A DNA stretch of 64,000 nt, taken from the NCBI RefSeq assembly GCF_016863315.1, contig NZ_BOOQ01000056.1, positions 1-64,000 on the forward strand, given 5' to 3'. Every line of letters begins with the position of its first letter. Within the stretch, counting starts at the first letter, position 1. The notes below the pieces were generated by a model that saw nothing but the letters and a program-made list of their open reading frames with translations, ran no database searches and had not been told where the DNA came from. A program made the position numbers and the translations under genes. Shown piece after piece: positions 12,004-57,992 of the stretch. Source of the stretch: Planotetraspora silvatica (GTDB lineage Bacteria; Actinomycetota; Actinomycetes; Streptosporangiales; Streptosporangiaceae).

Positions 12004-12144
12004 ATGACGCGCCGATTGGCTGCCACACTGACGCCGCTCCACGATGTAACCCTGGAGAGGCTCGCTCTGCTTCGCGACGATCCGGCGGAGTATCTCGACG
12101 TTCAGGACGCCGCGGCGGAGCGACTCAACCAGGCGATCAGGTAG
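12004..12144 (+). CDS. Small ORF, doubtful
   Basis: A 46-codon frame beginning MTRRLAATL and rich in Leu, Asp and Arg. It sits after the terminator, lacks a convincing ribosome site and overlaps the last 8 bp of the convergent helicase gene. It may be a remnant or chance. Confidence 0.15.
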   Translation: MTRRLAATLTPLHDVTLERLALLRDDPAEYLDVQDAAAERLNQAIR

Positions 12145-15100
12145 CAACGGCGAGGCCTCGGCCGTCCAACAGGGAACGAAGCACCATTACAGCTGTACCT
12201 CGGCTGAGGTCTTCGTGGTAGCGCTGGTTGCGGAAGCTCCTCAGGCACCCATAGCAGGATGTCTCCTCCCCGCATTCGCAGTTGGCCACCCGGGAAAGTG
12301 CGGACTCAGCAACCTGCTCGAGCGAGCGTGCGATACGAAGGACGCTGCCCGCCCCTCCGGGCACGGCGTCGAACATGACGATCCCGAGCCGACCTCCCGG
12401 CCGGGCGAACAGAGCACCGTCGATGTCGTCGCGGCTCAACTCCAAGCGCTCTGCCGCACCTTCGAGCAGCGCGTACAGGGCTGAACGCCAGTGCACAGGG
12501 CCGGCGGACGGCGGCATCGCGAGATGGTCGAAGCTCAGGTCCAGAATGTCGGTCTCGTAGGGATGTGCGAGCGATCGCAGCTGAAGCGGGCCGGTGCAGT
12601 CCGTGCCGCGCAGCAGGTGGGTGTGCGTCTTGCCAGTCTTCGCTCCCAGGGGAACTCCGGCGCCGCACCAGTCGCAGATCAGGTAGCCGACCCCCGTGGT
12701 GCCCTCCGAGACGGCGATCAGCCGGCCACGTGATCCGGCACTCCCGCGCACGGTCCCGCCGTTCGCAGTCTTCCAGGTGAACTCTTCGACCTCCTCCGCC
12801 GCCAGGGACAGGACATGCGTGGCCCCGTTCCAGCTGCGCCTGGGCGGCGTGGTCGTGGTCTTGGACGCCTTGGCCTCGGCGACGAACCCGAACTCGGGCA
12901 CGTAGTACTGCCGGGGCGCGCTTCTCGCGACGTTCGAACACAGAGGACAAATGGGGTCGAGCTCGTCGTCGCTTTCCCGGTAGTGCTGGCAGTGCTCGCA
13001 GATCGCGTAGAACTTGCCGACAAGCTCCCGGTCCGGCAGTCGGTACACCCCTCCAGACCGCCACAGCAGACCGCCCGCCACGACCTCGGCGCCGGGTGCG
13101 TACTCGTAGATCGCAGCCGACAGGTCCCGGGTGAGTTCCAGCTTGGCCCCGACCGCCTCGCCGGAGTAGCTGGTGCGCAGCTCGACGGTGTCGACCGGGA
13201 ATCCGTACTTGGGCAGCACGTTCCGATTCGCGAGATAGCCGAGCAGATCTCGCTGGGTGAGCGTGTTGATCGTCTTCGCGTATCGGGCCACAAGATGGTC
13301 CTTGCGCTCCTCGTACGCCTTGCGGCGACGCTCTTCGAAGATCTCCACATCGAGGGTGAGCTGCCGCCCGACCTCGTCCAGCAGGCGGGCCAGTTCGTCC
13401 ACCCATTCGCCGGTGTTGACGCCGATTTCGCGCTGGACCCCGGGTGGGAGCACCCGCATCAGAGATTGGAGGACTTCCCGCGGAACTGGTGTAAGGAACG
13501 ATCGAACACGCGACGCAGGTGCGCCCTTACCGCCGGGAAGGAAGAAGTCCCCCGCAGTGCTCCACGTCTCCCCCGTCGTCTGCCTGGCGTCACGGAAGAA
13601 CGCAGAGAGCGCAATCGAGTGAGCATGTCGCCGATCGATGCGCTCATTTCCGAGCGGCACGTACGGCGCCCGCACCTTGCCCGCGATCATCGACACGGGG
13701 TCCTGGAACCGGGACAGGTCATGGGAGCGTCGCTGCGCGTAAGTGACCACAAGAGCCGCCGAGTCGGTACGCCGTCCTGCCCGCCCCGCCCGCTGCACGT
13801 AGTTGGCCGTTGTCGGTGGCATGTTGCGCAGTACCACCGACTGCAGCTCGCCCACGTCGACGCCGAGTTCGAACGTGGTCGAGCAGGACAGCATGTTGAC
13901 CTCGCCCCGCAGGAACTTCTGCTGGATGTCCGCCGCTTCGAGGCTGGTCCACTGGGCCGTGTGCTCGCGGGCGACCAGAGGCACCGGCGTCACCGACCGG
14001 TAAACGGATCGGTAGTGATTGTCGTCCTCACCGGCGACCGGAACGGGGAAGGACTCGAGCGTGCCCCCGCATCTCATCGTCGGGCATACTCCGCGGACGG
14101 ATACGGCCGAGACACGCCGGCACACTCCGCACCGATACACAGGACTGTCGACGGGTGAAAGCCGCAGCCACGTGTGATCCACCTGCCGGACCGTCCCCAG
14201 CCCCCGGACAGTCTCGGAGGCGAGCCACCCGTAGCGTTGCGCGGTGATCACCTTCCAACAGCCACGGAGCACATCCTTCGGGTCGGCGTCGGACCCAAGC
14301 GCTGTGAGCACCCGCTGGACATAGTCCAGGCGCCGGTTGACACCGCGTGTGGGCAACCAGCTGAGCACCTTCCGGGTCGGCTCGGATCCGTCCTCGCGAA
14401 CGAAGAGCGGCCCAAGCCGCGGGGCGAATGCCTCATCTCGCGGATCGACCTCGTCGGGCATGTGGAGCACTCCGGACTGGCGTAGCGTACGCAACAGTTC
14501 CGACAGCAGTCCCCAACATTCGTCGTCGGACAGCCCGAGGGCTTTCAACCCGGCTGGGGTCGGCCACCGGGACTCGCGGTCGAGGTCGACACGGATCAAG
14601 CCGAGCCCTTCCAGGGACTGCCGATCGTCCATCGCGACGAGTTCCTGCATGATCCACAGCGCGACCTCGCGTTCGCGCTGCTGCCTCGTCATACGCCGCT
14701 CGAACACGTGGGCGCGGTCAGCCGCCTTGGCGACGTAGAACGTCAGGTCCGCCACGCTGACCGCCTCGCCGTCGCGGGTGGCCGCCTGCAATCCTTCCAG
14801 GAGGAGCCGCCGATGCTGGATGCTCGCGTAGCTCGACTCGAAGTACGGGGCGAAGAACGCGGCGGCCTGCCTGCTGTCGCTGAAGGACAGCAGCTTGCGG
14901 CCCTCTCCCGGTTGATCGGCGATCTCGTCCTTGCTGGCTGGTGGCAGCGCTTGATAGAGGGCGGTTGCCAGAACGGCTACCGCCGCGTCGTTGCCGCTCT
15001 CGAAGAGCCGGACCGAGCCTGGGCCTCGTGCGCCGCAGACGCCGCAGCCCTGTGGCGAGTCGTGGAGGGTCCTGATTCTGTGGACCGGCCAGAGCGAGGT

Positions 15101-20130: not shown

Positions 20131-20183
20131 TTCAGGCCTCGACGCGATTAGTCATGACAAGTACCACTATTCCTAGATACGGA

Positions 20184-22181
20184 TCATTCGATGTTGGTGA
20201 CGGGGAAGGGGATCGGCTCGCCCTCCCACGGGCGAGGCTCGATGCTGAGGCACTGGGACAGCGGCTGGGCGTCGCCCTTCTCACGGTCCAGCGTCTTGCG
20301 CCAGGCCTCGATGGTCCCCGACACGACGAACGGCCCAATCGGAATCGTGAGGGTGTCGCTCTCGACGCGGACTGGGACGATCTCCTTCGATATTTCGATG
20401 TCGCTGTCCAATCCGCCGTCGGCGGCCTCGATGGCGGCTTCGAGTTCGGCAAGGCCGAGCGAGCCGGTCCATTCGAAGTCCTCTCCGGTGGCCCTGGCCA
20501 CGATCTGACCGGAGTCCCACGAGCTCTGGAAGAGCTGGAACTCCAGAGCGCAACCCGCGAGGGGATCCGCCTCAGTCACATCCTCGTCCAGCCACTTCGG
20601 CCGGTAGCGGTCTATCAGCGCGGTCATCGCGTCGGCCAGCAGCGCACGGCGGGCGTTCAGGAAGTCCCGGTAGGCATCGGCGTGCCGCAGATTCTCGTCG
20701 TACGGCACGAAGTGCGCGGCCAACTCCGCCTTGGTCAGCGGCTGCTTCTGGTCGGTGAAGTAGTCGCTCGGAGACCGGTCACTGATCTTTCGATTCGCCT
20801 TTCCGGAGATGAATGCCAGGTTGGCCAGGTCATTGATCTCGGTCTTGCTGTAGCTGCCGGGGTGGTTCTTCAGGGTGGCCTGCGGATGGATGTGGTGGTA
20901 TTCGAGCTTCTGGCCGGCTTCAGCCGTGGCGGAGATCTCGGTGCCGTACCACCAGTCGTGTGCGCCGGCGTGCTTGGCAACGAGGTAGCTGAGGAAGAAA
21001 TACGGGCTGCCGACTGTGCGCCCGACCAGATCCTGAGGAGTCACCTCGATGCGCGCGCCTCGGATGCCGAGGTTGCCCAGCAGCTGCTTAACCGGCTCAC
21101 TCTCGCGCGCGGCGGGAATGTCCTGACCCAGTCGGGTGTCAGCCGAACTGCTGTAGCGGTTGCGGATGTTGGCGAGCAGGAACCAGTAGATGATGCCGTT
21201 GGTCGTGTCCTCGTCCATTGGCTCGTCCGGGCGCTCGCCGAGCAGCACGATGAGCGGAAGCAGCGCGACGTGCGAGGGGATCAGGTTGCTGTTGCCGACC
21301 TTCAGATTTTCGCGGAGCAGTGGGATGAGGTGACGCAGGCCTCGCTGGACGGTGGCCCAGCCGGTCTCGAGCTCTTCATCGCTGGCCGCGATCAGCCGTC
21401 CATGTGACCACGTGGACAGGCCTCGGCCGAGCACCGTGCCCGTCAGTGCACGAGTGAGGAACGTGACGTCGAGATCCTGGTAGTGCTTCTTGGCCCAGTG
21501 CTCAGCCTCCTCTTCCAGCTTCTCCAGCGTCCCGGGCCAACGAGCGGAGAGCGTCGCGAGCGCGAGGTCGCTGGTCTTGAGCGGGCGTCCGCTGTTCACC
21601 CGGACGAAGATCTGTGCGATCTCGTCGTACGGAAACTCGGTGAGGATCTCCATGTGGAACGCCCTGGAGCGGATCGCGGCCAGCCTGCCCACGCGCTCCC
21701 CAATGAGGTCCGGATCAAGCGCGGGGACGGCGTTGTGGAGGCTCGTGACGAGGGGGAACTGCTTGACACCGGGCCGGACGATCTCGTAGACCTTGATCCA
21801 CCTGGGATCTTTGGCCGTCGCCGCACTCTGGTTCTGGAACGACTCGGTCTCGACGTTGAAGACGATCTGGGCGTCCTTGTGATCATTGAGCACCCGGTGC
21901 AGCGAAGTCAGGCGCTGCTGCCCGTCGAGAAGGTAGAGCGGCTGTACGGCGGGCTGGCCCTGGGTTTTACCGATCGCGAGCCAGCGCGTGGCCGGCGCCT
22001 CCGTCGTTCTCCAGAACAGCAGCGACCCGGTCGGATAGCCGCGGTAGAGCGACTCGACCAGCTTTGCGACCTGGGTCGGCTTCCAGACGTAGCCCCGCTG
22101 GATCTCCGGCAGCAGGATCTCCTTGCTGGAGATCTGCCCCACCAGGGTCTGGACGTCTTTTTCTGCCTTCTCGACCGGCAT
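20184..22181 (-). CDS. DUF262-DUF1524 protein, single-chain GmrSD-type (type IV) restriction enzyme candidate
   Basis: 665 aa. The N-terminal DUF262 domain shows IQRGYVW (28-34), LDGQQRLTSL (85-94) and FVRVNSGRPLKTSDLALA, the NTP-binding, ParB-like part of GmrS. A DUF1524/HNH-like nuclease site follows: HHIHP at 429-433 with N450...NLAFIS and N463. The last 150 residues are unrelated and may sense substrate. The family cuts phage DNA with modified cytosines. GGAGCTCGC precedes the ATG. It sits between a diverged stub of the downstream gene and that gene itself, so it looks inserted as cargo. DUF262 proteins are frequent riders in defence islands. Confidence 0.88.
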   Translation of the reverse strand: MPVEKAEKDVQTLVGQISSKEILLPEIQRGYVWKPTQVAKLVESLYRGYPTGSLLFWRTTEAPATRWLAIGKTQGQPAVQPLYLLDGQQRLTSLHRVLNDHKDAQIVFNVETESFQNQSAATAKDPRWIKVYEIVRPGVKQFPLVTSLHNAVPALDPDLIGERVGRLAAIRSRAFHMEILTEFPYDEIAQIFVRVNSGRPLKTSDLALATLSARWPGTLEKLEEEAEHWAKKHYQDLDVTFLTRALTGTVLGRGLSTWSHGRLIAASDEELETGWATVQRGLRHLIPLLRENLKVGNSNLIPSHVALLPLIVLLGERPDEPMDEDTTNGIIYWFLLANIRNRYSSSADTRLGQDIPAARESEPVKQLLGNLGIRGARIEVTPQDLVGRTVGSPYFFLSYLVAKHAGAHDWWYGTEISATAEAGQKLEYHHIHPQATLKNHPGSYSKTEINDLANLAFISGKANRKISDRSPSDYFTDQKQPLTKAELAAHFVPYDENLRHADAYRDFLNARRALLADAMTALIDRYRPKWLDEDVTEADPLAGCALEFQLFQSSWDSGQIVARATGEDFEWTGSLGLAELEAAIEAADGGLDSDIEISKEIVPVRVESDTLTIPIGPFVVSGTIEAWRKTLDREKGDAQPLSQCLSIEPRPWEGEPIPFPVTNIE

Positions 22182-22323
22182 GCGAGCTCCGTGTCATCAG
22201 TTGGGGGCCTGACCGCGCCTGGCATGATCAATTGTTGATGCGAGTTTCCCGTACAAGTGCATCGAGCTGAGCGGACCGTTGATTACAGAAAGTCGTGATC
22301 ACGGCTTCCCGTCGGCTCCGTTC

Positions 22324-22575
22324 TCAGAGTCCGGGGTACACGCCTGCCCGTGCGGAGCGGACAGGCATACAACCCGGCTCACCGATCCTCGTCGTAGTCA
22401 CTCTGATAGTGGTCGGTGCGCCACAGGCCGTCGCGGACGGCGATGCCAGTGATGGCGACGGTGACACGTCCACCTCACACGCCCAGGACGACCCGCGTAG
22501 CCGCCGCGACCAAGCCTGCTCACCTAGGTCGAGCAGCTCGGTAGCGCCGACCTTCTTCACCGGCTGGGCGCTCAT
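22324..22575 (-). pseudogene. Truncated, diverged copy of the 5' end of the 1112-aa gene
   Basis: 83-codon frame. Residues 7-40 (KVGATELLDLGEQAW...RRLRGSS...EVDV) match residues 11-45 of the 1112-aa protein at about 70% identity, and 24 bases around the shared VGATELL region are identical at DNA level. After that the frame becomes Arg/Thr/Pro-rich and unrelated. The ATG overlaps the CoiA-like stop as ATGA, the coupling expected if a full gene once followed here. I read it as the stump left after rearrangement, although a short coupled peptide could still be made. Confidence 0.75.
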
Positions 22576-24707
22576 GACGCTGTCCCTGCAGGTTCAGCGC
22601 CATCGGACATCTGGGAGACCTCGGCAAGCCACTGCGCGCTCCGTTCGAGCTGCTGACGCTCGTTGGAGTTCGCGCCACCTCCCTCCTCTTTCATGAGAAG
22701 GTGCGTGCCCTCGCTGAGCAGTGTCCGTGCCACTGCGATGTTCCCGGCCAGTTCGGCTTGCTGCAACTGATCGACGATCTCCTGCAGCCTCACACTGGAC
22801 TGCCGAGGAGATGTCCGATCAGGTTTTGGCGCGGCGCCCCTAGCCGAGCTCACCTCAACTGCACGTTTTTGCCTGGCGTTCAACCACTTCTCGTGTTCCG
22901 CGAGCAGCCGAAGCTCATAGCGAAGGTCGAGATCCTGGTTGGCAGGCGAAGTCAGCAGACGACGGAGTTCGTCTGTCGCGTTCTGCACCTCTCGCGCGTT
23001 CGACGATGATTTAGCTCGATTTATCACCTTGTTAAGAGATGCGCACTTGTCCACGAGTGCCCAGTCGGGCTTTCTCGAGGAGTCAGCTCGCACGAGCGCG
23101 GGCTGGCGGAACGCCTCGATCTTGGCAAAGTGTTTCCGGAGCTTTGGATGCGATGCAGCCTCGGCGAGGATGGCGGCATTGGATTCGAGCAGCTTAACGA
23201 TGCCGCAGTGGTCACCTTTTCCGCTCGCCAGCCTCAGATCGGCGATGAGCTTCAGCATGCTGCGACGGAGCCGCTCCTCTGGCCCCGGTCCAGAGCTCTC
23301 CAGCTCATTGTTCTTCGAAACCTGGTGCGCCTTGACAGGCCTGGCCGCCACTACCGGCGTCTCCTGGGGGGCGAGACGGGCCGTTCGCGCACGGGCCTCC
23401 CTCAACCACATCTCGCTCGCTCGGAGAAACTGGACCTGATGTTCGAAGCTCGAATTATGCACGGACACCCGCGCCAAGGTCTTCCTGTAACTGTCGATCG
23501 CTCGCTGCACTTCCGGCAGGTTCATGGCCCCCATGGCCGTCTGGATACGCTTCGCGAGCAGAAGGCAATTGTCTCGGACATCCTGCTCGATGCTCTTGTT
23601 CGCATCCGCCTTCGCGACCGGAGCCGACGGAAGGGAGCCCGGTGCCGTCACCTGCGTTGGAACGGGCGTCGACACCTCGGTTGACTGATGCTGGACCAGC
23701 CCGGCGCTGAAGATGGTCCAGACTGGCGAGAGCTGTCCCTGCCAGATCCCAGCGTCGACCGACGCGGGCTCGACCAGGGAGTACGGCTGACCAACTGCGA
23801 GATCCAGGCGGCCGGGAACCATGATGCGGGCGTTGATCGGCTCACCATCGCCGATGATGACGTCAACCGTGGCGACGTGGGAGTTGGGCGGGATTCGTGG
23901 CCCCGAAATTGGCCTGGTGAGCGGTTCTTGTGGGCGGACGATGATGTCCTTGACCGCCAACGGGAATCCCGGGAGAGCTGCCGTCGTCGTTCCGGCGGGA
24001 GGTCGCCGGCTGGCCCGAACCTTGCGCAGAAGTGGTGTCACGACTCCCTTCGCGGTGATCTCGCAGTCGTCGAGGCTGCTCCACTGAAGGTCGCCGTCGC
24101 TGGTCTCCGTGCCGACCTTGACGACGCGTGCGGCCCCCTTCCCCTCCTCGCATCGGACCCGCAGCGCATAGCCGTCACGCTCAAGCAGATACTTGCTGGT
24201 CCTGGTCGCGGTGGGCCCAAGCATCCAGTCGACGTGCTCGAACTGGGCGCGCAGCACGTCGTCCTGTTGCTCCCATTCATCGGGAGAAAGGTTGACGAAC
24301 TGGACCTTGATGGCGGACTTGGTCTGACGACGACGGACGAGCAGATCCATGCACCGTCCAGCCTCGAGCCGTCCCTCGAATCGGGGTCGCTCGGTCAGGC
24401 CCGAGCTCAGACCTCGATGGATGAAGAGGTGGTCGGCACTGTCGGCGCCGAGGTAACGGCGCTCGCATTCGGGGGCCGTCCCCTTGGTGTCGGGGAAATG
24501 CGCGAAGTGACAGACCCGGTCACCGTAGAGCTTGTCCATCAGCCGCCAACCGCAGCCGCCGATCAGTACACCGCAGTAGAACTTTCGCCCTCGGTACCTG
24601 GACAGGTACGCTTCCGCTTCCTTGCGCTCGGTCGGCAGCGACAGGGGGCGATCGGAGTCGGGGCTGCCGAGCACTGCGGTTTGCACCCGGCGAGTGTCTT
24701 GCACCAT
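22572..24707 (-). CDS. CoiA-like nuclease-fold protein with helical C-terminus
   Basis: 711 aa. The N-terminal third has the CoiA layout: a Cys pair (YCGVLIGGCGW), CHFAHFP, an SADHLFIHRGL segment, then RCMDLLV and AIKVQFVNLSPDEWEQQ. CoiA proteins have a PD-(D/E)XK-like site with R-x-D and (I/V)E(I/V)Q; here the Glu is Lys, so catalysis may be altered. The middle is a beta-rich stretch and the C-terminal half is helical, with repeats of roughly 90 residues containing Leu-rich helices (DLRLASGKG, YELRLLAEHEKWL). GAGGA lies before the ATG. It sits between the DUF499 ATPase and the stub, separated by 96 bp from the former. Function unknown; nucleic-acid binding is a fair guess. Confidence 0.72.
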   Translation of the reverse strand: MVQDTRRVQTAVLGSPDSDRPLSLPTERKEAEAYLSRYRGRKFYCGVLIGGCGWRLMDKLYGDRVCHFAHFPDTKGTAPECERRYLGADSADHLFIHRGLSSGLTERPRFEGRLEAGRCMDLLVRRRQTKSAIKVQFVNLSPDEWEQQDDVLRAQFEHVDWMLGPTATRTSKYLLERDGYALRVRCEEGKGAARVVKVGTETSDGDLQWSSLDDCEITAKGVVTPLLRKVRASRRPPAGTTTAALPGFPLAVKDIIVRPQEPLTRPISGPRIPPNSHVATVDVIIGDGEPINARIMVPGRLDLAVGQPYSLVEPASVDAGIWQGQLSPVWTIFSAGLVQHQSTEVSTPVPTQVTAPGSLPSAPVAKADANKSIEQDVRDNCLLLAKRIQTAMGAMNLPEVQRAIDSYRKTLARVSVHNSSFEHQVQFLRASEMWLREARARTARLAPQETPVVAARPVKAHQVSKNNELESSGPGPEERLRRSMLKLIADLRLASGKGDHCGIVKLLESNAAILAEAASHPKLRKHFAKIEAFRQPALVRADSSRKPDWALVDKCASLNKVINRAKSSSNAREVQNATDELRRLLTSPANQDLDLRYELRLLAEHEKWLNARQKRAVEVSSARGAAPKPDRTSPRQSSVRLQEIVDQLQQAELAGNIAVARTLLSEGTHLLMKEEGGGANSNERQQLERSAQWLAEVSQMSDGAEPAGTAS

Positions 24708-24803
24708 TCATCCTCACGAAGGTCGGGTCTCAACGTGCCGGTTGCGGCGCTAGACGGGTATAGGCGATCGGACACGGGCCGGTCGACGCCGGCCCGTGCC
24801 AGT

Positions 24804-27800
24804 TCACCGATCCTCGAAGCCGAACTGGTCGAACTTCAGGACCTTGGCGTTCTCGGAAACGATGCGGACCTTGTCCTCGGGGAAGCCGTCGGCCCGCTTT
24901 GCCCTGATCTCGATTGCCAGCTCCAGCTCAACACCGTCGACCGCGCTCAGGTGCTGGACGAGCTCGGTGTAGATCTTGGTGAAGCTTTTCTGCGGCAGCT
25001 CGGGGTTGAGCTTGACCGCGCCGAAGAAACGGACGTTCTTCGGACCAGGCGGCGTGACGTCTCCGCCACCCGGCTGGCCGCCGCCCGTCTGGCCGGCGGA
25101 CCCGCCGGTCTGCCCCTCACTACCGCCGCTGCCTGAGCCGTCCCCGCCGCCCGCATTACCGCCACCGGCCCCTCCGGCACCTCCGCCGGCCGGCACTTGC
25201 TCTGCCTCCCGCTGGGCGATCGCCAAGTCAGGCCTGACAAGCATCGTGCCGTCCGTGATCTGCCCGAACCGGCCTGTCGGCGGCACGGCCAAGCCCTCGA
25301 ATCGCGTGCCGTCGTGGCCTGTGGCGAGGGCGAAGCCGGTGGCCTCCCAGTCGAACTCGTCCAGCCCGGCGAGAATGCCGCTGTCGAGCACGACCCGGTC
25401 GCGCAGCCGTGGCAGATACGGGTACCGGCAGTAGTAGCTCCACAGCTCCTCGACGGAGATGTGGCCCCTTTCCCAGACGCTGGCAAGCGGCCCGTCCAGG
25501 TTTCCCCTGATGACGGAGGCAGCCTGGACGGTCCGGAGCGCGTCGCGCTGTCGAAGCTTGGCGCTCACCCGCTCGGCCAGTCGATCCTTGCTGCCGTCGG
25601 CCTTCTCCGTCTGCCAGGTGATGTGGGCACCCGGCTGCTGGTCGGGCAGGAACGCCCAGAAGTAGGTCTCCCTGATCCGCAGGTCCACGGCCTGGTCGGC
25701 GTTGGAACGCCGGGTCTCGACCTGCTTGATCTGCTGAGCCCCCAGGTCCAGCTCCTCGGTACGACCGGAGATGTTGTCCCAGGCGAGGTAATCCCGTACG
25801 GCTTGGCCGAGCTCCTCCATCCGCTTGGCGTCGCCGGCCAGGAAGACGAGCATGTTCCGGTTGATCCGCTGCGAGGATCCCCGCGTGTCCAGCACGTTCT
25901 GTGCGAAGACACGGGCCGAGGACTTGTCGTCTCCCTTGGCGTGCACGAACTTCGGATGCAAAATCACCAGCCGAGCGTCGCCTGTGTCGGGCACATCCTG
26001 GCTGTCATCCGTGACGTGCACGGCCGCGAAATCGCTGCGGACCTTGGGCTCCTTGGTGCGCAGCCGCGTGACGATCTCGAGCCACACGTCCTCCTGGTAC
26101 AGCCTCTCGCCGTAGTCCTTGGCTGTGCGGGTGACCGAGGCCTGTGTGTCGAACCAGTAGCGCGCGCCGTCCACGTAGACGAAGGTCGCTCGGTCGGTGA
26201 GGACGTGCAGCGCGGAGCCGAAGTTGCCGACGACGTCGCCGGGGATGGCCACGCCGAGCCAGAGGTTCTGCTGTTCGACGCCCTTGTGCTGTTTGGTCAG
26301 CGTCGGTGCGGCCCCGAGGAACAGCGTCCTGGCGAGGCGCCGCGTCAGGGCGCGCTTGCCGAAGACGGTGCGCTCCTTGTCGATCTGCACGGGGGTCGCC
26401 GTCTCGCTGTCGACGTCGGTCTCGAGCACGGTCTTCCAGTTGTCCTGGAGGTACTGCGTGAGCTCGCTCGCCACCGCCGGGTCGTTCAGCGGGACCGACC
26501 CCGGCATGATCAGCGGCCCGGCGTCCTGCGCCACCCAGAGCTTGTGGATCACTGTGCTCATCAGCCGCAGCACGCCACGGGTCCGCTGGAACCGGTCCAG
26601 GGTCGACCAGTCCTCATACAGGCGGTCGAACAGCTCAGGGTGGATGGGGTAGGCATTGGCGATTCGCTGCTCGTACGACGTCTCCGAGCACTCCCGGGGG
26701 AACTCGCCCTTGTGGTCGTTGTAGAACTTCCAGAACTGCTTGGCGATCGCCCCGATCTCGGCCTTGGCCCTGGCATCGGGCTCCTCGAACAGCCGCCGCC
26801 GTACGATCTCAAACGACTCATGCGCCCGGGCCGGCTGCCACTGCTGCGCAACGCGTCGGATCACGTTCTGCAAGCGGTCCAGCGCTGCCTGGCCGTTGAC
26901 GCCACCAACCTCGAGTGCGCTACCCATGATCGCGTCCTCCGTCTCACCGTGGCTCGAGGCGGGGATGGAGACGACGAGCAGCGCGCCCGGAACGGCCTTG
27001 ACCTGCTCGGAGATGGTCTGCGCGAACGTGAACTGGGTGTCGAAGGTCCCGGCGGGGAGGTCATCGCGCCCGTAGAGCTGCCGGGCGTAGGCGACCCACT
27101 CATCGATGAGGATCAGACACGGTGAATAGCGCGCGATGACCTCGCGTAGCGCGTCCCCCGGGTTGGTGTGCGCCTCGTCGGCGACTCTGACCATCTCGTA
27201 CGCCTCACGGCCACCGAGTTGCCAGGCCAGCTCTCCCCAGAGGGTGTGGGCATGTGTGCCGTCGTTCTTGACCTTGCCCGCCGCCGGGTCGATGTGGTTG
27301 CCGACGAGCGCGGCCCGGTTGACTTTCCCACCGACCGCGCTGGTGTCGATGTCCCCCAGCAGGTCGACGACCTCCTGCGGGAACTCGTGCATCGGCGTGC
27401 CGGAGAACATGTGCCACAACGCCAGCATCGAGTGGGTCTTGCCGCCGCCGAAGTTGGTCTGCAGGTTCCAGACCGGGGTGGCGTTCATGTCGCCGCCGAC
27501 CCGGGCGACTGCCTTTCGAAGGAGATCCTGCAGACCCTCGGTGAGGTACGTACGGCGGAAGAACTGGACCGGGTCGGTGTACTCCTCGCTGCTGCTCTCC
27601 CCGATCGACACCATGTGCAGGTCGGCGGCGAACTCGGCGGCGTCCAGCTTGCCCGCGGCCACATCCGGGTGCGGGTTGATGATCTCCCGCCACGGCTTCA
27701 ACCCGTTGGCTTCGATCGTGGGCATGGATGTGACGGCACTGGAGGCCTTACGGGTCTCGCTGTCGTAAAGGCTGCGCTGGTGGTCCAGCCGCAGCTTGCG

Positions 27801-28193
27801 CACCTCCTCCGCCCGATCCATCGCACCGACGGCGGTCAGCAGCCGCTCCATCGTGTCGAGGCCCCGGTAGGTGTCGTCAGCGGAGAACGGCTTGGTGTGC
27901 GCCCACTTGTTGCCGACCTCTTTCAGCTCGCCGGCGAAATTCTGCTCCACCCGCGAAAGCCGGTCCTTGAAGACTCGCCACTCCTCGACGATGACCCGCA
28001 GCAGGAACCGCACGTCGGTCTTCTCGTAGACCTTGTTCGTCCCGTGCTTCGCCGCGTCCCGCGCCTGAAGGACCTCCACCCAGTCCTTACTGCCGGGCAT
28101 GGCCATGTCCATCATCATGTCGACGAAGGGCTCCAGCCCCGCCCCGAGGACTTCCAGCCCGCGGCCGATCCTGTCCCTGTTGCTGAGTGCCAT
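24804..28193 (-). CDS. DUF499 AAA-type ATPase with Swt1-like HEPN N-terminus
   Basis: 1129 aa from the ATG at 28193, five bases after the methyltransferase stop and preceded by AGAGGA; the longer open frame to 28286 overlaps the methyltransferase and is not coding. Residues 1-125 resemble the Swt1-type HEPN helical domain (VGNKWAHTKPFSADDTYR). Walker A is NFGGGKTHS at about 247-255 and Walker B is CLILIDEWVAY. A Gly/Ser/Thr/Pro linker, roughly residues 1000-1050, joins a short C-terminal domain. DUF499 ATPases co-occur with DUF1156 methyltransferases. Inferred role: nucleotide-driven motor or switch in the restriction-like complex. Confidence 0.87.
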   Translation of the reverse strand: MALSNRDRIGRGLEVLGAGLEPFVDMMMDMAMPGSKDWVEVLQARDAAKHGTNKVYEKTDVRFLLRVIVEEWRVFKDRLSRVEQNFAGELKEVGNKWAHTKPFSADDTYRGLDTMERLLTAVGAMDRAEEVRKLRLDHQRSLYDSETRKASSAVTSMPTIEANGLKPWREIINPHPDVAAGKLDAAEFAADLHMVSIGESSSEEYTDPVQFFRRTYLTEGLQDLLRKAVARVGGDMNATPVWNLQTNFGGGKTHSMLALWHMFSGTPMHEFPQEVVDLLGDIDTSAVGGKVNRAALVGNHIDPAAGKVKNDGTHAHTLWGELAWQLGGREAYEMVRVADEAHTNPGDALREVIARYSPCLILIDEWVAYARQLYGRDDLPAGTFDTQFTFAQTISEQVKAVPGALLVVSIPASSHGETEDAIMGSALEVGGVNGQAALDRLQNVIRRVAQQWQPARAHESFEIVRRRLFEEPDARAKAEIGAIAKQFWKFYNDHKGEFPRECSETSYEQRIANAYPIHPELFDRLYEDWSTLDRFQRTRGVLRLMSTVIHKLWVAQDAGPLIMPGSVPLNDPAVASELTQYLQDNWKTVLETDVDSETATPVQIDKERTVFGKRALTRRLARTLFLGAAPTLTKQHKGVEQQNLWLGVAIPGDVVGNFGSALHVLTDRATFVYVDGARYWFDTQASVTRTAKDYGERLYQEDVWLEIVTRLRTKEPKVRSDFAAVHVTDDSQDVPDTGDARLVILHPKFVHAKGDDKSSARVFAQNVLDTRGSSQRINRNMLVFLAGDAKRMEELGQAVRDYLAWDNISGRTEELDLGAQQIKQVETRRSNADQAVDLRIRETYFWAFLPDQQPGAHITWQTEKADGSKDRLAERVSAKLRQRDALRTVQAASVIRGNLDGPLASVWERGHISVEELWSYYCRYPYLPRLRDRVVLDSGILAGLDEFDWEATGFALATGHDGTRFEGLAVPPTGRFGQITDGTMLVRPDLAIAQREAEQVPAGGGAGGAGGGNAGGGDGSGSGGSEGQTGGSAGQTGGGQPGGGDVTPPGPKNVRFFGAVKLNPELPQKSFTKIYTELVQHLSAVDGVELELAIEIRAKRADGFPEDKVRIVSENAKVLKFDQFGFEDR

Positions 28194-28198
28194 CGTGG

Positions 28199-30988
28199 TC
28201 AGTCCTCTTCGGGGGTAAGGTCGAGGGTCTGCTGCGTGTTCATGATTGGTACGGCGGTGCGGGACGCCTTCTCGATCTCCGACCAAGCCGAGCCGAGCCC
28301 GTTGAAGAGCAGAGCGGTTTGGGCCCAGTTGCGCCGCTCGCAGATCGAGAAGAGCAGATAGGCAAGCTCCTTGGCTGTGTCGAGGTCGACCCGGCTCTTG
28401 GCGGCGGCCATCAGCTGCCCGGCAGCCTCGATGCCCTGCTCGTCGAGTCGCTTAGCTAGGTGCATGGCCACTTCCCAGACCGAGATCCGATCATCGGCCA
28501 ACGGGTCGTAGGTTTCGGGCAATTCGCCGGGACTCAAGAGCTGCACGATCCCAGCTCGTGCCTTGAGCACGCCAGAGCGGTCAAGCCCCGCCACGGAAGT
28601 GTCCAAGGCCTTGGACAGCGTCTCAGCCTGTCCGTACTTGCCCTCGTCGAAGCCGTGGGTCTCAAACCACTTGATGCAGAATCGGGTGTCCGAATCGAAG
28701 TCGCCCTCCTGCTCAGAAAGCACCTCAGCCAGGATCTGGTTGATCAGGATTAGCGCCGCCCGCACGCTCATCGGAGAGCCATCCGATTCGGTCACCCGGG
28801 CATAGCGAGAAAATACCGCCATCCCGGGTCCAATCGCCGCCTGCGCTAAGTCCACCGGAGCGATCCCACCCTGCTGCACTTCCTTTAACGCACCGGGGAG
28901 CTCCGCTTTAAGCGTGTTGATCAACGCTCGTCGGTCGATTACGCCCGCATCTTCCGGGCGAGGCCGACACGCAAGAACAACCGATGAAGCGAGCGCGTTG
29001 CTGACCATGCCACGCATACGTGTTGCCATCTCGGTCCGCATAGGCCACGTGGCCGTAATCGCCCAGCCAGAACGAATCATTCCCTCCAGCAGGGTCTCCC
29101 AGCCAGTTGACGCCTCGCCAACGTCATCACTCTCTGCCTGTTTGAATGCATAAAAGACTGTCGTTGGGTAGAGAACAATGGCCTCTCGCCGAATGCTGCT
29201 AAAGACCTGCCGGAATCCTTCCTCGAAGAATTGAGTAGCCTGTTCTTTACCGCCTCGCCGATACTGATCCGCAACGAGCTCTCCTGATTTTGGTGTCAGG
29301 AGTGTTCCGAGCAGGTCAGAGAAGACGTCCCCAAGCGAGCGACGCAACCAGACGTAGAAGAAGTCAGAGAGATCCGCATACGCAACATTGTCATAGTATG
29401 GCGGATCAGTCGATATAATGACATTTGAGTAGTCTCTTTTGGTGGCATCCCACTGAGAAGCGACGGCCAGACCGAGTCCAGGTACGCCCCCGAGAACCTT
29501 GCAAACCCCATCGATGATGCCCGACCAATCCCCGCCTGCTCCGGCATATGGAGAGACTTCCGCGAAGTCCCAAACCATTGGGATTGCCTGTCGGCCAAAC
29601 GCCTGGGCGCTCTTGTCAGCATCAGGCCGCCAACGAGCCTGTGTGCAATGAAATACAGCAGCTTTACTTGCAGCTAATGCCAGATATAGAGCAGCGGAGT
29701 CAGCATAAGCTACCGCACCGGTTCCTCCATGAACGAGGGAATCGCCATGGGGAATCTCCGCAGCAAGGGCATCAGCAAGAATATTTTGCCGAGCCTCACC
29801 AACGAGGCTATTGAGAGTAGTAAGCATGACGAGTTGACGGTTGGTGAACAGGTCTGCCCACTCGGTCATCCCGTAGCCCTGCACACGAAAACCGAGAGCT
29901 TGATCCGGAAGCTCTCCATCGGGCACATCGTTTGGCCGTTCGACCTTAGCGACCTGCTCATGCTCGTCAGTTGGGGCCAGGTAGTAGCGCATCCGAGGGC
30001 CTTCAGCGGCAATGGCCATAAGCTGAGCGTCCATCCGCCCTGCTTTGCCCTCAGCGCGGATATAGGTTAGCGGAACCGGGGTGTTGCAAATCATGCACAC
30101 GCCACCGTTACGGCCAACAACTCCTTCCCGAGGCTGTCCCTTAGGGCCGCGGATTTCGAAACGTACACGCTTGCCTTCCACGACCGGTTCAACGTAGCGC
30201 TCCTTGCCCTTCTTCTTTCCAAGCCAGAAGGAGTGGACCAGCGGCATGGTGCCACCACAAGCTGGGTTAGGGCATGTGACCGTACGTGCCCAGATCCAGG
30301 CGATGACGTTAGCTTCGGTGCCATCCTCCAGCTTCGCCTTCGGGTAAAGGTGACCGATGCGCTTCTCCGTCTCGTCACGCATCCACTGACCGTAGCGACG
30401 AACGTCCTCGGCAAGGCCCGTCGCTCCAGGCCAGTCACCCATCCGCGATTCGGCAGCCCCGGGGAACACCGGCGGCTGCCCCGCCCACTTCGGGGGGATC
30501 TCGATGAGGGCCTTGTTGATAAGGACCGGGACCGGGTTCAAGTCGGAGGCATGAGCCTCCAGGCCGAGCCGCTGGGCTTCCAGCGGGATCGAGCCGCCAC
30601 CCGCGAACGGGTCGAGGATGGGCGGCGGGTTTCCCTCGCAGGACTTCATGATTTCGGCGTGGGCCTCTTCGTACAACGCCTTGTCATTGACGTTGTCCCA
30701 GTCGACCAGTCGCTCGATGATGTTGAAGAGCCTCTTGCGCTCTAGGAGCACGTCTTCATCAGAAGGGAACTCGTCCGGACGCGAGGACGGGTCGTCCACG
30801 AGTTGTGCGAAGAGCACAGCCCTGCAGGCAGCCAGCGGGCGGCGAGCCCACCACAGGTGGAGCGTGGACGGGTGGCCATGCCTGATCGACTTCTCACGAG
30901 CCGACTGCTTGTTGATCTCCTCCAGCGGCAGCGCGACCTCGATCAGCTTCTTGCGGGGGGTGCCGTTCGATCCGGTCCCACTGCTCAT
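28199..30988 (-). CDS. DUF1156 adenine-specific DNA methyltransferase with Zn ribbon (DrmMI-like)
   Basis: 929 aa. The N-terminal DUF1156 domain begins LIEVALPLEEINKQSAREK. The SAM motif DPFAGGGS is at 126-133, a split zinc ribbon at CPNPAC (239-244) and CMIC (298-301), and the catalytic DPPYYDN at 528-534. The long insert between motifs I and IV is normal for COG1743. It should methylate adenine N6 and so mark self DNA for the helicases and nucleases around it. Start chosen at the ATG at 30988 (ATGA overlap, GAGGAGGAG upstream) rather than 31012. The second half (29,000-30,000) is visibly less GC-rich than its neighbours, suggesting transfer. Confidence 0.9.
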   Translation of the reverse strand: MSSGTGSNGTPRKKLIEVALPLEEINKQSAREKSIRHGHPSTLHLWWARRPLAACRAVLFAQLVDDPSSRPDEFPSDEDVLLERKRLFNIIERLVDWDNVNDKALYEEAHAEIMKSCEGNPPPILDPFAGGGSIPLEAQRLGLEAHASDLNPVPVLINKALIEIPPKWAGQPPVFPGAAESRMGDWPGATGLAEDVRRYGQWMRDETEKRIGHLYPKAKLEDGTEANVIAWIWARTVTCPNPACGGTMPLVHSFWLGKKKGKERYVEPVVEGKRVRFEIRGPKGQPREGVVGRNGGVCMICNTPVPLTYIRAEGKAGRMDAQLMAIAAEGPRMRYYLAPTDEHEQVAKVERPNDVPDGELPDQALGFRVQGYGMTEWADLFTNRQLVMLTTLNSLVGEARQNILADALAAEIPHGDSLVHGGTGAVAYADSAALYLALAASKAAVFHCTQARWRPDADKSAQAFGRQAIPMVWDFAEVSPYAGAGGDWSGIIDGVCKVLGGVPGLGLAVASQWDATKRDYSNVIISTDPPYYDNVAYADLSDFFYVWLRRSLGDVFSDLLGTLLTPKSGELVADQYRRGGKEQATQFFEEGFRQVFSSIRREAIVLYPTTVFYAFKQAESDDVGEASTGWETLLEGMIRSGWAITATWPMRTEMATRMRGMVSNALASSVVLACRPRPEDAGVIDRRALINTLKAELPGALKEVQQGGIAPVDLAQAAIGPGMAVFSRYARVTESDGSPMSVRAALILINQILAEVLSEQEGDFDSDTRFCIKWFETHGFDEGKYGQAETLSKALDTSVAGLDRSGVLKARAGIVQLLSPGELPETYDPLADDRISVWEVAMHLAKRLDEQGIEAAGQLMAAAKSRVDLDTAKELAYLLFSICERRNWAQTALLFNGLGSAWSEIEKASRTAVPIMNTQQTLDLTPEED

Positions 30989-33900
30989 ACCGGTGCTCCT
31001 CCTCGTGCCCATTCCTTGTTCCAGTCGCCAACCAGGTCGGTTGCGGAGAAATCGCCGAAATCAACATCCCTGAAGGGATCGGCGACGTACCGCACCTCGT
31101 CACGCTTCGCTCCGTCCGGATGCACACTTACGAGCGCAAGCCGGAAGTTGGAGCCCGAGTTCTTACCTGTCAGGACTTCCGTGCGTGTGACGTGGAAGTC
31201 CGGCGCGCCGTTTACACGGCCTTTAATTTCGATGAAGATCCAGTGGTCGTCGACGGTCCGAGACCGGACGTCGAAGCCGGGGTTGCTGTGCGGCATCTCC
31301 TCCGGAAGCCGGCCGAGCTTGCGCTCCTCGGCCAGCACGCGCTCGACCGCACGGCGCTCCACGGCAGCCGTCTCACGCGCGTACGCCTCCACCGGGCCGG
31401 TACGCAGGCCCATCAGCCGGTCCAGCAGACCCTGCGGCACGACCAGCGCGGCCCCGGCCACCGTCGGTGCTTTGACCTGCAGAAGCTGGGCCTGGTCGAG
31501 GTCGGCCATCCGGCGCTCCAGCCGGGCCTCCAGCGCCCGTGCGCGTTTCTCGGCGGTCTCCGGCCGGATCTTCAGCACCTTGCCTGCCAGCTCGGCGTCG
31601 AGCAGGTCGGCATGCCGGGTGTCCCAGTAGTTGATCTCCTGGAGGAGGCGCTGCCGTACCAGAGAGCGAGTGCGCGCGGTCTGGGCGGCGAGGCGCTCGC
31701 GAAGCTCGCCGATGAACGTGGCGAGTCCGTGCTCGACGGCCCAAGCGACCGCGACGTCCTCCACCCCGCCGGCCAGCCAGTCCTCCCCCAGCACCGCACC
31801 GACAGCGGCACGTTCCTGCTCGGTCGCGGGCGCGTAGTCCAGGTACGGCGCGGCCCCGGCCGTACGTGCCGAAGCTGGGCCGATCTCCACGAAGTCGAAG
31901 CGCTTGGCGATGACGCGTGCGTCGCCGTCAGCGACCTCCTGGGAGACCGCGACCAGCAGGTGCGGCTCTTCCCCCACGTCGCGCCTGTCGACCAGCACCG
32001 CGCCCTGTTTGAGCTGCGTGCCGTACCGCTCGATGACCAGCGAGACCACCGCGTCGAGCAGCGGGTGGCCGGGGGCGAGCAGGTCGGCGCGGGGCCGGCC
32101 GGCGGGCCGCACCAGGTCTCGGTCGAACGTGACGCGCTCGTAGCGCCGCAGGACCGGGACGCCCACCCTGATCTGGCGGTCGTGCTCGACCAGGTCGCCC
32201 GGCACATGCGTGATCTCGTAGCGGCCCGACTCCCGCTCGGAGATGCGCCCGCCGAGCAGCTTGAACGCCGCGAGGAAGAACGCCTTGACGTAGTGCGGCT
32301 GCAGGCGGCGGGCGCGGGCCTCCTCCATGCGCAGCCGCCACGCGGCCACGTCGCTCTCGTCGAGCTTGTGATGCGCCAGCGACCGCTCGGCCATCAGCTT
32401 GTCCAGGCCCTCGCCGACGGAGGAGTCGATGACCTGGTTGAGCCGGTCGCGGACTTCCGGCCGGTCGCCGTACTGGATGGCCTCCATGAGGAGCTTGCGC
32501 AGCGGCTCGCCCTGGAACGCCTCGCCGAGGACGTCGAAGACCTTCCCCTTGTACGCGCGGCGCTGCTCGTCGATTTTGTCGAGGATGCGTACGAATACGG
32601 CGCCTTCGCGGGTGTCGGCGGCGACGAGGTTCCACAGGTGGCAAACCTCGGTCTGCCCGATGCGGTGGATGCGGCCGAAGCGCTGCTCGATCCGGTTCGG
32701 GTTCCACGGCAGGTCGTAGTTCACCATGAGATGGGCGCGCTGAAGGTTCAGTCCCTCCCCCGCCGCGTCCGTGGCGACCAGGACCTGACAGGCCTTGTCC
32801 TGGGTGAACAGCTCCTTGATGCGGCGTCGCTGGTCGCGGGAGACGCCGCCGTGGATCGCGACCACGGCTTCATCGCGGCCGATGAGACCGCGGATGCGGT
32901 CAACGAGGTATTCGAGCGTGTCCTTGTGCTCGGTGAAGACGATCAGCTTGCGTGGGCCGCCGTCGGTGTCGCGGATCAGGGCGTGGCTCTGCAGCAACTC
33001 CGACAGCTCGGTCCATTTGCGGTCGGTGCCGAGGTTTCGCACCCGGCGTGCAACCTCGACGAGGTCGGTGAGGATGCCGATCTCCTTGTCGAGCTCGGCG
33101 ATGGTCTGCGCCGTCGTCGCGGCGTCGACCACGTCGTCTTCGAGCTCCTCGACGTCGGTGCTGGGCATGTCGTCGAGCTCGGTGTCCAGCTCGGTGACGT
33201 CCTTGCCGAGCAGGACGGCGAGGCGCAGCTTCAGGCGGCCATCCGGCTCGTGTCTGCCGGTGGCCAGCTCGTGGCGGAGCTGCTGGAGGCGCTTGTGGCG
33301 GCGTTCGAGCGACTTGAGAATCGCCTCGGGGCTGGAGGCGAGGCGGCGCTGGAGGACCGTGAGCGCGAAGCCGACCGTGTTGCCGCGGCGCCCCTCGCCT
33401 TGCGCGGCGAGCTGCTGGGCCTTGCCCATCTGCTCGCGGACATATTCGGTGACGACCTCGTAGAGCTCACGCTCGGCGTCGGACAGCTCGTAGGGGACGG
33501 TGTAGGCGCGGCGCTCGGGGAACAGCGGCTTGCCTTCGAAGGTGAGCAGGTCTTCCTTCACCATGCGCCGCATGAGGCCGTCGGTGTCGGCCGAGCTGAT
33601 GCCCTCACGGTATTTGCCCTCGAACCGGTCGGAGTCGAGCAGGCCCATGAAGAGCTGGAAGTCGGCCTCGCTGCCGGCGTGCGGGGTCGCGGTCATCAGC
33701 AGCAGGTGGCGGGCGTGGCGGCCGAGGAGCTCCCCGAGCTGGTAGCGCTTGGTCTTCTTCAGCTCCTCGCCGAAGTAGCGAGCGGACATGCGGTGCGCCT
33801 CGTCGACCACGACCAGGTCCCAGTCGCTCTGGCTGAGCTGCTCCTGCAACTCCTCGCTGCGGGAGAGCTGATCCATCCGGGCGATCAGCAGAGGATGGCG

Positions 33901-34494
33901 CTCGAATGCGCTCTGGTCGAGCTGCTCCTCGACGAGCTGGCGGGTGAGCAGCGTGAAGCGCAGGCCGAACTTCTCGAGCAGCTCCTCCTGCCACTGCTCG
34001 ACCAGGCCGCCGGGTGCGACGATCATGCAACGTTCCAGGTCGCCCCGGAGCATCAGCTCCTTGATGTAGAGCCCGGCCATGATGGTCTTTCCGGCGCCCG
34101 GGTCGTCGGCCAGAACGAAGCGCAGCGGGGACCGGTCCAGCAACTCGCCGTAGACCGCCTGGATCTGGTGCGGCAGCGGTTCGAGATCGCTCGTGGTGAC
34201 GGCGAGCATGGGGTCGAAGCGCGCGGCCATACGGATGCGCAGTGCCTCGGCGGCCAGCTTGAAGAGCGCGCCGTCGCCGTCGAAGGCATAGGCGGCCGAT
34301 TTCTCGCGCAGGACAAGCTGGGGCTCGTGGTCGCGGTAGAGAAGCTGGTCGGCCACGCCGCTGTCGGTGCGGTAGGTGAGGTTGACCGCGTTCGAGCCAT
34401 ACCACTTGACCGCGACAACGGACACGTCACCGGTCGGCGTCACTCCGCCCACGACGGCGCCCGGCGTCAGGTCTTCCAGCCTGACGCTGGTCAT
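30985..34494 (-). CDS. SNF2-family helicase with C-terminal DUF3883 nuclease-fold domain (DrmD-like)
   Basis: 1169 aa, first gene of the operon. Walker A ADDPGAGKT is at 129-137, DEAH at 231-234, MTATPHAGSEAD follows, and the second lobe carries VATDAAGEGLNLQ and QRFGRIHRIGQ. A helical region spans about 690-1040. From residue 1071, NPGFDV with FIEIKGR gives D1075, E1089 and K1091, a D-x(13)-ExK arrangement of the Mrr/PD-(D/E)XK type; DUF3883 domains have this fold. DrmD of class 1 DISARM is a similar SNF2 helicase beside a COG1743 methyltransferase. No clear Shine-Dalgarno precedes the ATG. Confidence 0.88.
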   Translation of the reverse strand: MTSVRLEDLTPGAVVGGVTPTGDVSVVAVKWYGSNAVNLTYRTDSGVADQLLYRDHEPQLVLREKSAAYAFDGDGALFKLAAEALRIRMAARFDPMLAVTTSDLEPLPHQIQAVYGELLDRSPLRFVLADDPGAGKTIMAGLYIKELMLRGDLERCMIVAPGGLVEQWQEELLEKFGLRFTLLTRQLVEEQLDQSAFERHPLLIARMDQLSRSEELQEQLSQSDWDLVVVDEAHRMSARYFGEELKKTKRYQLGELLGRHARHLLLMTATPHAGSEADFQLFMGLLDSDRFEGKYREGISSADTDGLMRRMVKEDLLTFEGKPLFPERRAYTVPYELSDAERELYEVVTEYVREQMGKAQQLAAQGEGRRGNTVGFALTVLQRRLASSPEAILKSLERRHKRLQQLRHELATGRHEPDGRLKLRLAVLLGKDVTELDTELDDMPSTDVEELEDDVVDAATTAQTIAELDKEIGILTDLVEVARRVRNLGTDRKWTELSELLQSHALIRDTDGGPRKLIVFTEHKDTLEYLVDRIRGLIGRDEAVVAIHGGVSRDQRRRIKELFTQDKACQVLVATDAAGEGLNLQRAHLMVNYDLPWNPNRIEQRFGRIHRIGQTEVCHLWNLVAADTREGAVFVRILDKIDEQRRAYKGKVFDVLGEAFQGEPLRKLLMEAIQYGDRPEVRDRLNQVIDSSVGEGLDKLMAERSLAHHKLDESDVAAWRLRMEEARARRLQPHYVKAFFLAAFKLLGGRISERESGRYEITHVPGDLVEHDRQIRVGVPVLRRYERVTFDRDLVRPAGRPRADLLAPGHPLLDAVVSLVIERYGTQLKQGAVLVDRRDVGEEPHLLVAVSQEVADGDARVIAKRFDFVEIGPASARTAGAAPYLDYAPATEQERAAVGAVLGEDWLAGGVEDVAVAWAVEHGLATFIGELRERLAAQTARTRSLVRQRLLQEINYWDTRHADLLDAELAGKVLKIRPETAEKRARALEARLERRMADLDQAQLLQVKAPTVAGAALVVPQGLLDRLMGLRTGPVEAYARETAAVERRAVERVLAEERKLGRLPEEMPHSNPGFDVRSRTVDDHWIFIEIKGRVNGAPDFHVTRTEVLTGKNSGSNFRLALVSVHPDGAKRDEVRYVADPFRDVDFGDFSATDLVGDWNKEWARGGAPV

Positions 34495-43848: not shown

Positions 43849-44219
43849 CTCCGGCCTCCGTCCCCATCGCATCTGACGTGTCATTGCAAACGTACGTGAC
43901 CTACATAATCGTGGATCCATACGGATGCATGTGCCAGATGCGCAACTGCGCCGCCCGTGACTCCTGAACCTCCCCTGCCCGGCTCAGATGCCCAGCCGCT
44001 CTTGGCGACAGCCCCCCACAAGGCGCGCATGCCACGAGCCAAGGCGGATTGGGGGCGCGGGCTTCTTCTCGATCACCAAGCTACAGGGACAAGACAAGGT
44101 GCTGCCCACCAGTGCGATCTGCCCGACCGATCCAATGACCGGTGGCCGGTGATCGCGCGCAGCTTGGCCGGAGTTGTGGTCGGCTGGGCGGCCTGGGTGA
44201 GGCTCACCGACGAAGGTGC
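43849..44219. other. Intergenic region without recognisable gene
   Basis: 371 bp upstream of the second methylase. ORFs here show no family similarity and have weak starts. The promoter of the methylase presumably lies between 43849 and 43950, a less GC-rich stretch; I cannot place it exactly. Confidence 0.4.
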
Positions 44220-52973: not shown

Positions 52974-53036
52974 CTGAACCATTTCTCCTTCTGCCGATGA
53001 TCACCCCTTAGACGACGCGCCGGGGAGGAACGTTCC

Positions 53037-57896: not shown

Positions 57897-57992
57897 ACGA
57901 CCCTCCTGCGACTCGCGACTGTTGGAGGAAGTTTAGTGGAGATGTGGGGGTATTTGCCTGGGATCTGTAGCTCTCAACCACCGCCTGGATAA

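Follow-up and report, generated by a model that had tools for sequence, protein, structure and literature searches.

A complete Hma system in one operon with a GmrSD-type enzyme and a Druantia-like pair in Planotetraspora silvatica

The stretch of DNA analyzed here (the window) comprises positions 1 to 64,000 of the forward strand of Planotetraspora silvatica contig NZ_BOOQ01000056.1 (assembly GCF_016863315.1) and carries, on the minus strand at 12137-34494, seven large co-directional open reading frames (ORFs) arranged head to tail. In order of transcription, these encode HmaA, HmaB, and HmaC, a CoiA-like protein, a GmrSD-type enzyme, an 1112-amino-acid (aa) partner protein in the position of DruH, and the helicase DruE (Table 1). 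The locus brings known modules together in a new way and retains a readable history of exchange, and we consider it probable that it functions as a composite anti-phage operon in which Hma, the GmrSD-type enzyme, and DruE with its partner act in layers. Text searches of open-licence papers that paired Hma or DUF499 with Druantia brought up no description of such a union.

Table 1. Positions of the operon genes, the DruH fragment, and two upstream genes in the window
Feature	Position	Strand	Evidence
HmaA, SNF2-type helicase with C-terminal NOV_C/DUF3883	30985..34494	-	PADLOC PDLC00659, E = 0, 1425 bits; Pfam; motifs
HmaB, DUF1156 adenine-N6-type DNA methylase	28199..31012	-	PADLOC PDLC00660, E = 0, 1130 bits; Pfam DUF1156
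HmaC, HEPN_Swt1 plus DUF499 AAA+ ATPase	24804..28193	-	PADLOC PDLC00662, E = 5e-269; Pfam
CoiA-like accessory protein, 711 aa	22572..24707	-	CoiA_N in relatives; alignments; AlphaFold2 (AF2) model
DruH 5' fragment, about 40 codons, exchange scar	22453..22575	-	Genome search, E = 4e-7; hidden Markov model (HMM), E = 8e-6
GmrSD-type (DUF262-DUF1524) HNH enzyme	20184..22181	-	Pfam GmrSD_N, weak GmrSD_C; PADLOC HEC-05, E = 3e-39
DruH-position partner, 1112 aa	16792..20130	-	Position directly before DruE
DruE, YprA/DUF1998-type superfamily 2 (SF2) helicase, 1552 aa	12137..16795	-	PADLOC DruE, up to 575 bits; DEAD, Helicase_C, MZB
Ser/Thr kinase with tetratricopeptide repeats (TPR)	34834..36387	-	Pfam; in block common with P. 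thailandica
N6_Mtase gene	36524..38479	-	Pfam; in block common with P. thailandica

An initial annotation of this DNA had described eight coupled genes joining a DISARM-1-like half to a Druantia-like half. No eighth large gene was found among the ORFs of the interval, and the coupling holds for parts of the operon rather than throughout: HmaA and HmaB overlap by 28 bp and the DruH-position gene and DruE by 4 bp, the spacing of HmaB and HmaC is small provided that HmaC starts at the ATG at 28193 (MALSNRDR...), as adopted here, and not at the TTG at 28286, and gaps of 96 bp and 53 bp separate HmaC from the CoiA-like gene and the GmrSD gene from the DruH-position gene. The sole large gap, 390 bp between the CoiA-like and GmrSD genes, contains a 5' fragment of DruH. 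All seven large frames are open, with motifs intact wherever tested. The domains listed initially (SNF2 plus DUF3883, the DUF1156 methylase, DUF499, DUF262-DUF1524, and the DUF1998 helicase) are all matched by Pfam, the DUF1524 domain below the cut-off, and the view of the locus as a multi-helicase, restriction-like composite stands.

Judged by gene content and order, the first half of the locus contains all genes of an Hma system, known too as the Type-1 BREX-Related (BR) system, with a predicted anti-phage role; it had been taken for the DISARM-1-like half, a view contradicted by the score of HmaA, which reaches 1425 bits with the PADLOC HmaA profile versus 384 bits with the best DrmD model. 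HmaB and HmaC score 1130 and 893 bits with their own profiles, and the three genes are adjacent on one strand. HmaA joins an SNF2/ResIII helicase to a NOV_C (DUF3883) domain (Pfam, E = 5e-15), a region that reads as a PD-(D/E)xK-type domain with a predicted nuclease motif (GFDVRS at residue 1073 and EIKG at 1089). HmaB has a DUF1156 domain (Pfam, E = 5e-31), DPFAGGGS at residue 134, and DPPYY at 536; the text of PMC8565338, where it treats Hma, terms HmaB a 5-methylcytosine enzyme, but the DPPYY motif and PADLOC's own label indicate adenine. HmaB has a hypervariable region at about residues 401-550, where it is 42-50% identical to its P. thailandica counterpart, against 70-96% in the other 50-residue bins, and divergence falling mainly there between close relatives is the pattern expected if specificity has been swapped. 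HmaC consists of HEPN_Swt1 and DUF499 domains (Pfam), so that DUF499, initially noted as foreign to both canonical sets, is instead the mark of a defining Hma gene.

Hma was named in PMC8565338 (PADLOC 2021), in a passage that places it frequently near Septu. The sections of PMC12839542 on BR systems treat the same trio as Type-1 BR, in which the N6-methylase marks self, the DUF499 ATPase scans, the helicase-nuclease is the effector, and HEPN is a possible back-up. The window shares with the systems so described the HmaA-HmaB-HmaC order, the HEPN-DUF499 protein, the helicase with a PD-(D/E)xK-type C terminus, and the DUF1156 methylase, and differs in that the CoiA-like gene, GmrSD, and the DruH/DruE-like pair come after Hma. 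The word Druantia is absent from the main text of PMC12839542.

The GmrSD-type enzyme, present as first annotated, proves to be a known kind of Hma insert: it matches PADLOC HEC-05 (E = 3e-39), and the HEC models are listed as "Hma embedded candidates" in a table of PMC10855318. It contains GmrSD_N and GmrSD_C domains (the latter at 20.6 bits, under the Pfam cut-off of 23), with DGQQR at residue 86 and an HNH motif, HHIHP, at 429. These domains and motifs, and a place inside an Hma-led operon, are common to HEC-05/GmrSD type IV enzymes, which PMC12839542 lists among the auxiliary nucleases of BREX and BR systems; here, by contrast, a CoiA-like gene and a DruH scar separate GmrSD from HmaC.

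The operon ends, as the initial annotation had it, in a DruE-type helicase with a large partner. DruE contains DEAD, Helicase_C, and MZB (DUF1998) domains with intact motifs and scores 575 bits with DruE1 and 565 bits with DruE3. Its MZB domain ends at residue 1518 of 1552, leaving 34 residues, versus about 400 beyond MZB in the E. coli and Rhodobacter proteins; as read from its sequence, the window DruE is without a C-terminal nuclease, including the PLD nuclease of the III-A type. Bell et al. 2025 (PMC12458937), in discussing the Druantia III-like branch, report that it most often lacks a nuclease domain. Druantia III and III-B, as covered in PMC12458937, PMC13192584, and PMC13316683, share with the window a DUF1998-type DruE that immediately follows a partner of roughly 1100 aa. 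In E. coli, DruE is reported to engage 3'-tailed DNA, with DruH as a likely sensor (PMC13192584), and DruH-DruE protects M. smegmatis (PMC13316683).

The window has the DUF1998/MZB helicase and two-gene DruH-DruE order of Druantia III, but its partner protein matches no PADLOC DruH model. It has no match in PADLOC, Pfam, or NCBIfam, in line with its first labeling as unknown, and 0 of 26 members of its family match any PADLOC model (in a search whose filters remove most matches above about 0.1), while the DruH models do match the DruH proteins of E. coli and Rhodobacter. Comparison by hhalign of the family (alignment A2, the window protein plus 25 of 40 hits, with truncated, contig-edge, and duplicate ones omitted) with eight canonical DruH sequences was not significant (E = 0.06). 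Sequence and profile searches of the PDB gave no DruH homology, a negative that says little because the searched set possibly does not include the solved DruH entries of PMC13192584, and the AF2 model, at a predicted local distance difference test score (pLDDT) of 31.7, was unusable. All of these routes to DruH homology were negative or unusable; because of the missing PADLOC match and the nonsignificant profile comparison, we refer to the protein by its place, as the DruH-position partner, and do not count the pair as true Druantia III. The first annotation had named a call as a standard DISARM or Druantia system as telling against it; the PADLOC profile matches do not amount to either, since no DruH model matches.

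Members of the DruH-position family, fragments included, occur in 39 of 297 genomes of the organism's order (Streptosporangiales; family Streptosporangiaceae) and in 4 of 396 genomes of a phylum sample (the window's genome counted). Of the 39, 32 have DruE as the next gene downstream, one (G081) has only a fused DruE remnant, and six have no DruE in the fetched stretch, which extends about 2 kb downstream. One of the six, G051, has DruH fragments only: at L155 2154-2581, the gene is cut down to its N- and C-terminal ends, with the middle gone. No relatives were found in viral contigs, nor in plasmids with the window protein as query.

Between the two halves lies the CoiA-like protein, which has no family match itself in Pfam, PADLOC, or NCBIfam and was characterized in an alignment (A3) of the window protein with 19 of its 44 hits. 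It is laid out as a CoiA_N-type Cys/His domain, a degenerate nuclease-like domain, a possible OB-like domain, and a variable helical C terminus. CoiA_N is matched by 8 of the 20 family members (best E = 4.6e-6; the window protein unmatched), and Cys45, Cys52, His67, His70, Cys81, Asp92, and His93 are invariant in all 20; CoiA_nuc is absent among the best 25 of 39 families matched by family members. The name "CoiA-like" thus appears valid for the N-terminal domain and not for the nuclease part. The CoiA nuclease motif is E-x-Q/K, with a catalytic glutamate. With the motif so defined, none of the 20 sequences has an acidic residue where the glutamate would be expected; two columns further on, Q occurs in 14 and E in 2. 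We rejected a nuclease function on this ground, and the protein, initially proposed as one of three nuclease sites, is a poor candidate for the third because that column holds no acidic residue. The AF2 model (seven sequences, pLDDT 64.9) found no fold match in the PDB at E≤0.001 (best, 2.6e-3); weak SSB-like and Cap4-like matches (E of 4e-3 to 0.2) are the one source of the hint at an adaptor or OB fold. Going by this model, its most likely role is that of a non-catalytic adaptor binding DNA or single-stranded DNA (ssDNA). Members of its family occur in 37 of the 297 genomes and on 94 plasmid records (89 from Streptomyces).

The 390-bp gap preserves a trace of how the operon was assembled. 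The DruH 5' fragment starts in an ATGA overlap, its ATG lying on the stop codon of the CoiA-like gene, and matches the DruH N terminus at 23 of 33 positions, a score reached by 0 of 500 shuffles. At the corresponding site, genome G100 has an intact CoiA-DruH junction, and in G081 a fused remnant comes after the CoiA-like gene, with the N-part of DruH joined to the C-part of DruE (the score of neither part was reached in 500 shuffles); the search for a decayed DruH remnant in P. thailandica gave only a weak candidate, its score reached by 4 of 500 shuffles. Because the fragment follows the CoiA-like gene, GmrSD appears to have come between that gene and DruH, and the simplest reading of these sequences is that GmrSD entered an ancestral CoiA-DruH-DruE unit by insertion or recombination. 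HmaC is present in 25 of the 297 genomes at E≤1e-30, 15 of them above 800 bits ("strong"). In these 15, which alone enter the count, the gene after HmaC is CoiA-like in 3, GmrSD in 6, and neither in 6; as far as gene order tells, an exchange slot separates hmaC from druH.

The initial annotation would have been refuted by a set of genes never found together elsewhere, but they do occur together in other genomes. The full seven-gene order is found in one other genome of the 297, that of P. thailandica (G103, NZ_BOOR01000033.1), with best-segment identities of 94-97% for HmaA, GmrSD, DruH, and DruE, and subsets are found in three more: Hma-CoiA-DruH-DruE without GmrSD (G100), Hma-GmrSD-DruH-DruE without CoiA (G063), and Hma-GmrSD followed by a 6.9-kb insert and then DruH-DruE (G104). 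Six ORFs of this insert were scanned, most of them on the other strand; three matched alpha/beta hydrolase, HATPase, and HTH-DUF5753, three were unmatched, and none gave a defence-type match. HmaABC and DruHE are thus together in 5 of the 15 strong HmaC genomes.

A further union lies outside the phylum, on plasmid NZ_CP023549.1 of Rhodobacter sp. CZR27, where HmaA (1561 bits), a 210-aa ORF, HmaB (1080), HmaC (948), DruH3 (95), and DruE3 (1694) follow each other on one strand with gaps of 1-26 bp. It is one of 8 plasmid loci opened, with flanks of 1.5-4 kb, from 19 records matching E. coli DruH. This locus shares with the window the series HmaA, HmaB, HmaC, DruH, DruE and differs in its canonical DruH3 and DruE3, its 210-aa ORF (L218 21484-22116, between HmaA and HmaB, with no Pfam or PADLOC match), and its lack of a CoiA-like gene and GmrSD. 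Models recognize both halves here, and the union therefore stands whatever the reading of the window's DruH-position gene. Gene order suggests at least two unions of Hma with a DruH-DruE pair, and the different kinds of DruH in the two lineages speak for their independence.

From window position 12192 to 38652 (~26 kb), the DNA aligns with P. thailandica at 83-93% identity, apart from about 22306-23691 and 29413-29763. Beyond this block, the fetched part of the P. thailandica contig aligns only at two short stretches, both within the window's methylase gene at 42001-43920; a different P. thailandica contig carries DNA resembling window 38854-39816. We infer from this alignment that the block probably moved as a whole, together with its kinase and methylase genes. 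The kinase and N6 methylase genes of the window (those in Table 1 and that at 42001-43920) are possibly of a Pgl-like family; in each of the four further genomes of the genus that were searched, matches to both kinds lie near each other, often in more than one place.

Gene identities, motifs, recurrence, the exchange scar, and the block common with P. thailandica are observed; the enzymatic roles are assigned by analogy with Type-1 BR (PMC12839542) and Druantia III (PMC13192584 and PMC13316683), and the order of the layers and their cooperation are proposed. HmaB would methylate adenine at N6 to mark self DNA, with its variable region determining the site, HmaC would build a scanning complex, and HmaA would translocate on unmarked DNA and cut it by way of its C-terminal PD-(D/E)xK-type domain. 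GmrSD may add type IV-like HNH cutting against phages that evade Hma through DNA modification. DruE, a predicted 3'-to-5' helicase with no nuclease of its own, would form with the 1112-aa partner a later layer directed at phage DNA during replication, in which the partner or the other nucleases would do the cutting, and the CoiA-like protein would serve as the non-catalytic DNA- or ssDNA-binding adaptor. Cooperation of Hma with the Druantia-like pair is plausible. A stronger version, which we put forward tentatively and with less than even confidence, is that of one integrated Hma and Druantia III-type system, joined at least twice, once in this actinobacterial lineage and once on a plasmid of an alphaproteobacterium. 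In such a system, the methylation-based discrimination of Hma would feed the DruH/DruE layer, and the slot would serve to swap nuclease or adaptor cassettes and, in the lineage with a nuclease-less DruE, to supply the nuclease that is missing.

Several observations weigh against joint action. The joint occurrence could be mere stacking, and the 390-bp gap may weaken coupling. HmaC and DruH occur in the same genome in six cases (P = 0.007 with the 15 strong HmaC genomes, 0.09 with all 25; 0.02 or 0.18 without the window; 0.07 or 0.32 without the window and P. thailandica), values that ignore the relatedness of genomes; with per-genome co-occurrence this weak, the argument rests on direct adjacency. 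The Hma-linked DruE copies of the order fall in one clade (support, 0.974) together with G279, which has Hma elsewhere in its genome, and G197, at a contig end, pointing to few events (the tree omits the duplicate L037 and hits shorter than 540 aa or scoring below 300 bits). In the phylum sample, HmaC is present in 29 of 396 genomes, and DruHE was beside Hma in 0 of 16 loci fetched from 15 of these, all outside the order, although several contigs end early; G644 of this sample has both on different contigs. Conversely, 34 of the 39 DruH-family genomes have no Hma beside the family member in the fetched stretch, and 10 of the 15 strong Hma loci are without DruHE there; in one of these, G227, a DruE N-terminal fragment lies ~7 kb downstream of an Hma-GmrSD locus (L167 443-574). 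Among the CoiA-like loci fetched, HmaB, HmaC, or DruH matches occur only in L037/L045 (one organism) and L048. Such figures favor a defence island in the form of one operon, in which independent Hma, GmrSD, and Druantia-like systems happen to sit under one promoter and to be passed on jointly without being functionally coupled; we regard this as rather unlikely yet a serious competitor, against which stand the directly joined order in the window, G103, G100, and G063 and the 1-26 bp gaps in Rhodobacter.

That the locus is decaying or half broken, with a remnant of DruH left by exchange and parts possibly non-functional, is suggested by the fragment in the 390-bp gap and by decayed DruH or DruE pieces in G081, G051, and G227, but the seven open frames, the motifs intact where tested, and the 94-97% identities to P. 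thailandica make this quite improbable. Least credible, to the point of being nearly negligible, is a single ARMADA- or DISARM-like system built from a YprA helicase, a BrxHII-like helicase, and a methylase, even though HmaA also matches BrxH and DrmD models and PMC12458937, in its account of ARMADA, describes that system as linking DISARM and Druantia via YprA, BrxHII-like, and PglX-like genes. Class 1 DISARM shares with the window an SNF2 helicase related to DrmD and a methylase; membership was rejected on the scores of HmaA given above and on DrmB and DrmC, which are unmatched in the full PADLOC lists of the five non-helicase proteins, whereas for the two helicases the only DISARM models among the best 25 of 48 and best 25 of 57 matches are DrmA and DrmD. 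ARMADA shares BrxHII-like and YprA SF2 helicases and an adenine methylase, but here the methylase is DUF1156/HmaB and not PglX-like (1130 bits with the HmaB model versus 13 with PglX), a HEPN-DUF499 ATPase is present, and no domain follows MZB, the 34 residues there leaving no Vsr-type domain; membership was likewise rejected.

Elsewhere in the window, a tandem pair of genes (51054-52982 and 53037-54629) encodes dynamin-family GTPases, and GC content falls to 55.9% at 56001-58000, versus 63.6% and 66.2% in the adjacent 2-kb steps, over ORFs that include a CBS-domain protein.

Hma and Druantia III (or a III-like pair), which are catalogued as systems of their own, stand in one operon in two phyla, and cassette exchange between them has left a visible record. 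The PADLOC 2023 models match the Hma genes, GmrSD, and DruE but not the DruH-position partner, so unions of this kind may be under-counted. The locus also offers a defined setting in which to ask whether Hma shares in the synergy that has been reported between Druantia III and other systems.

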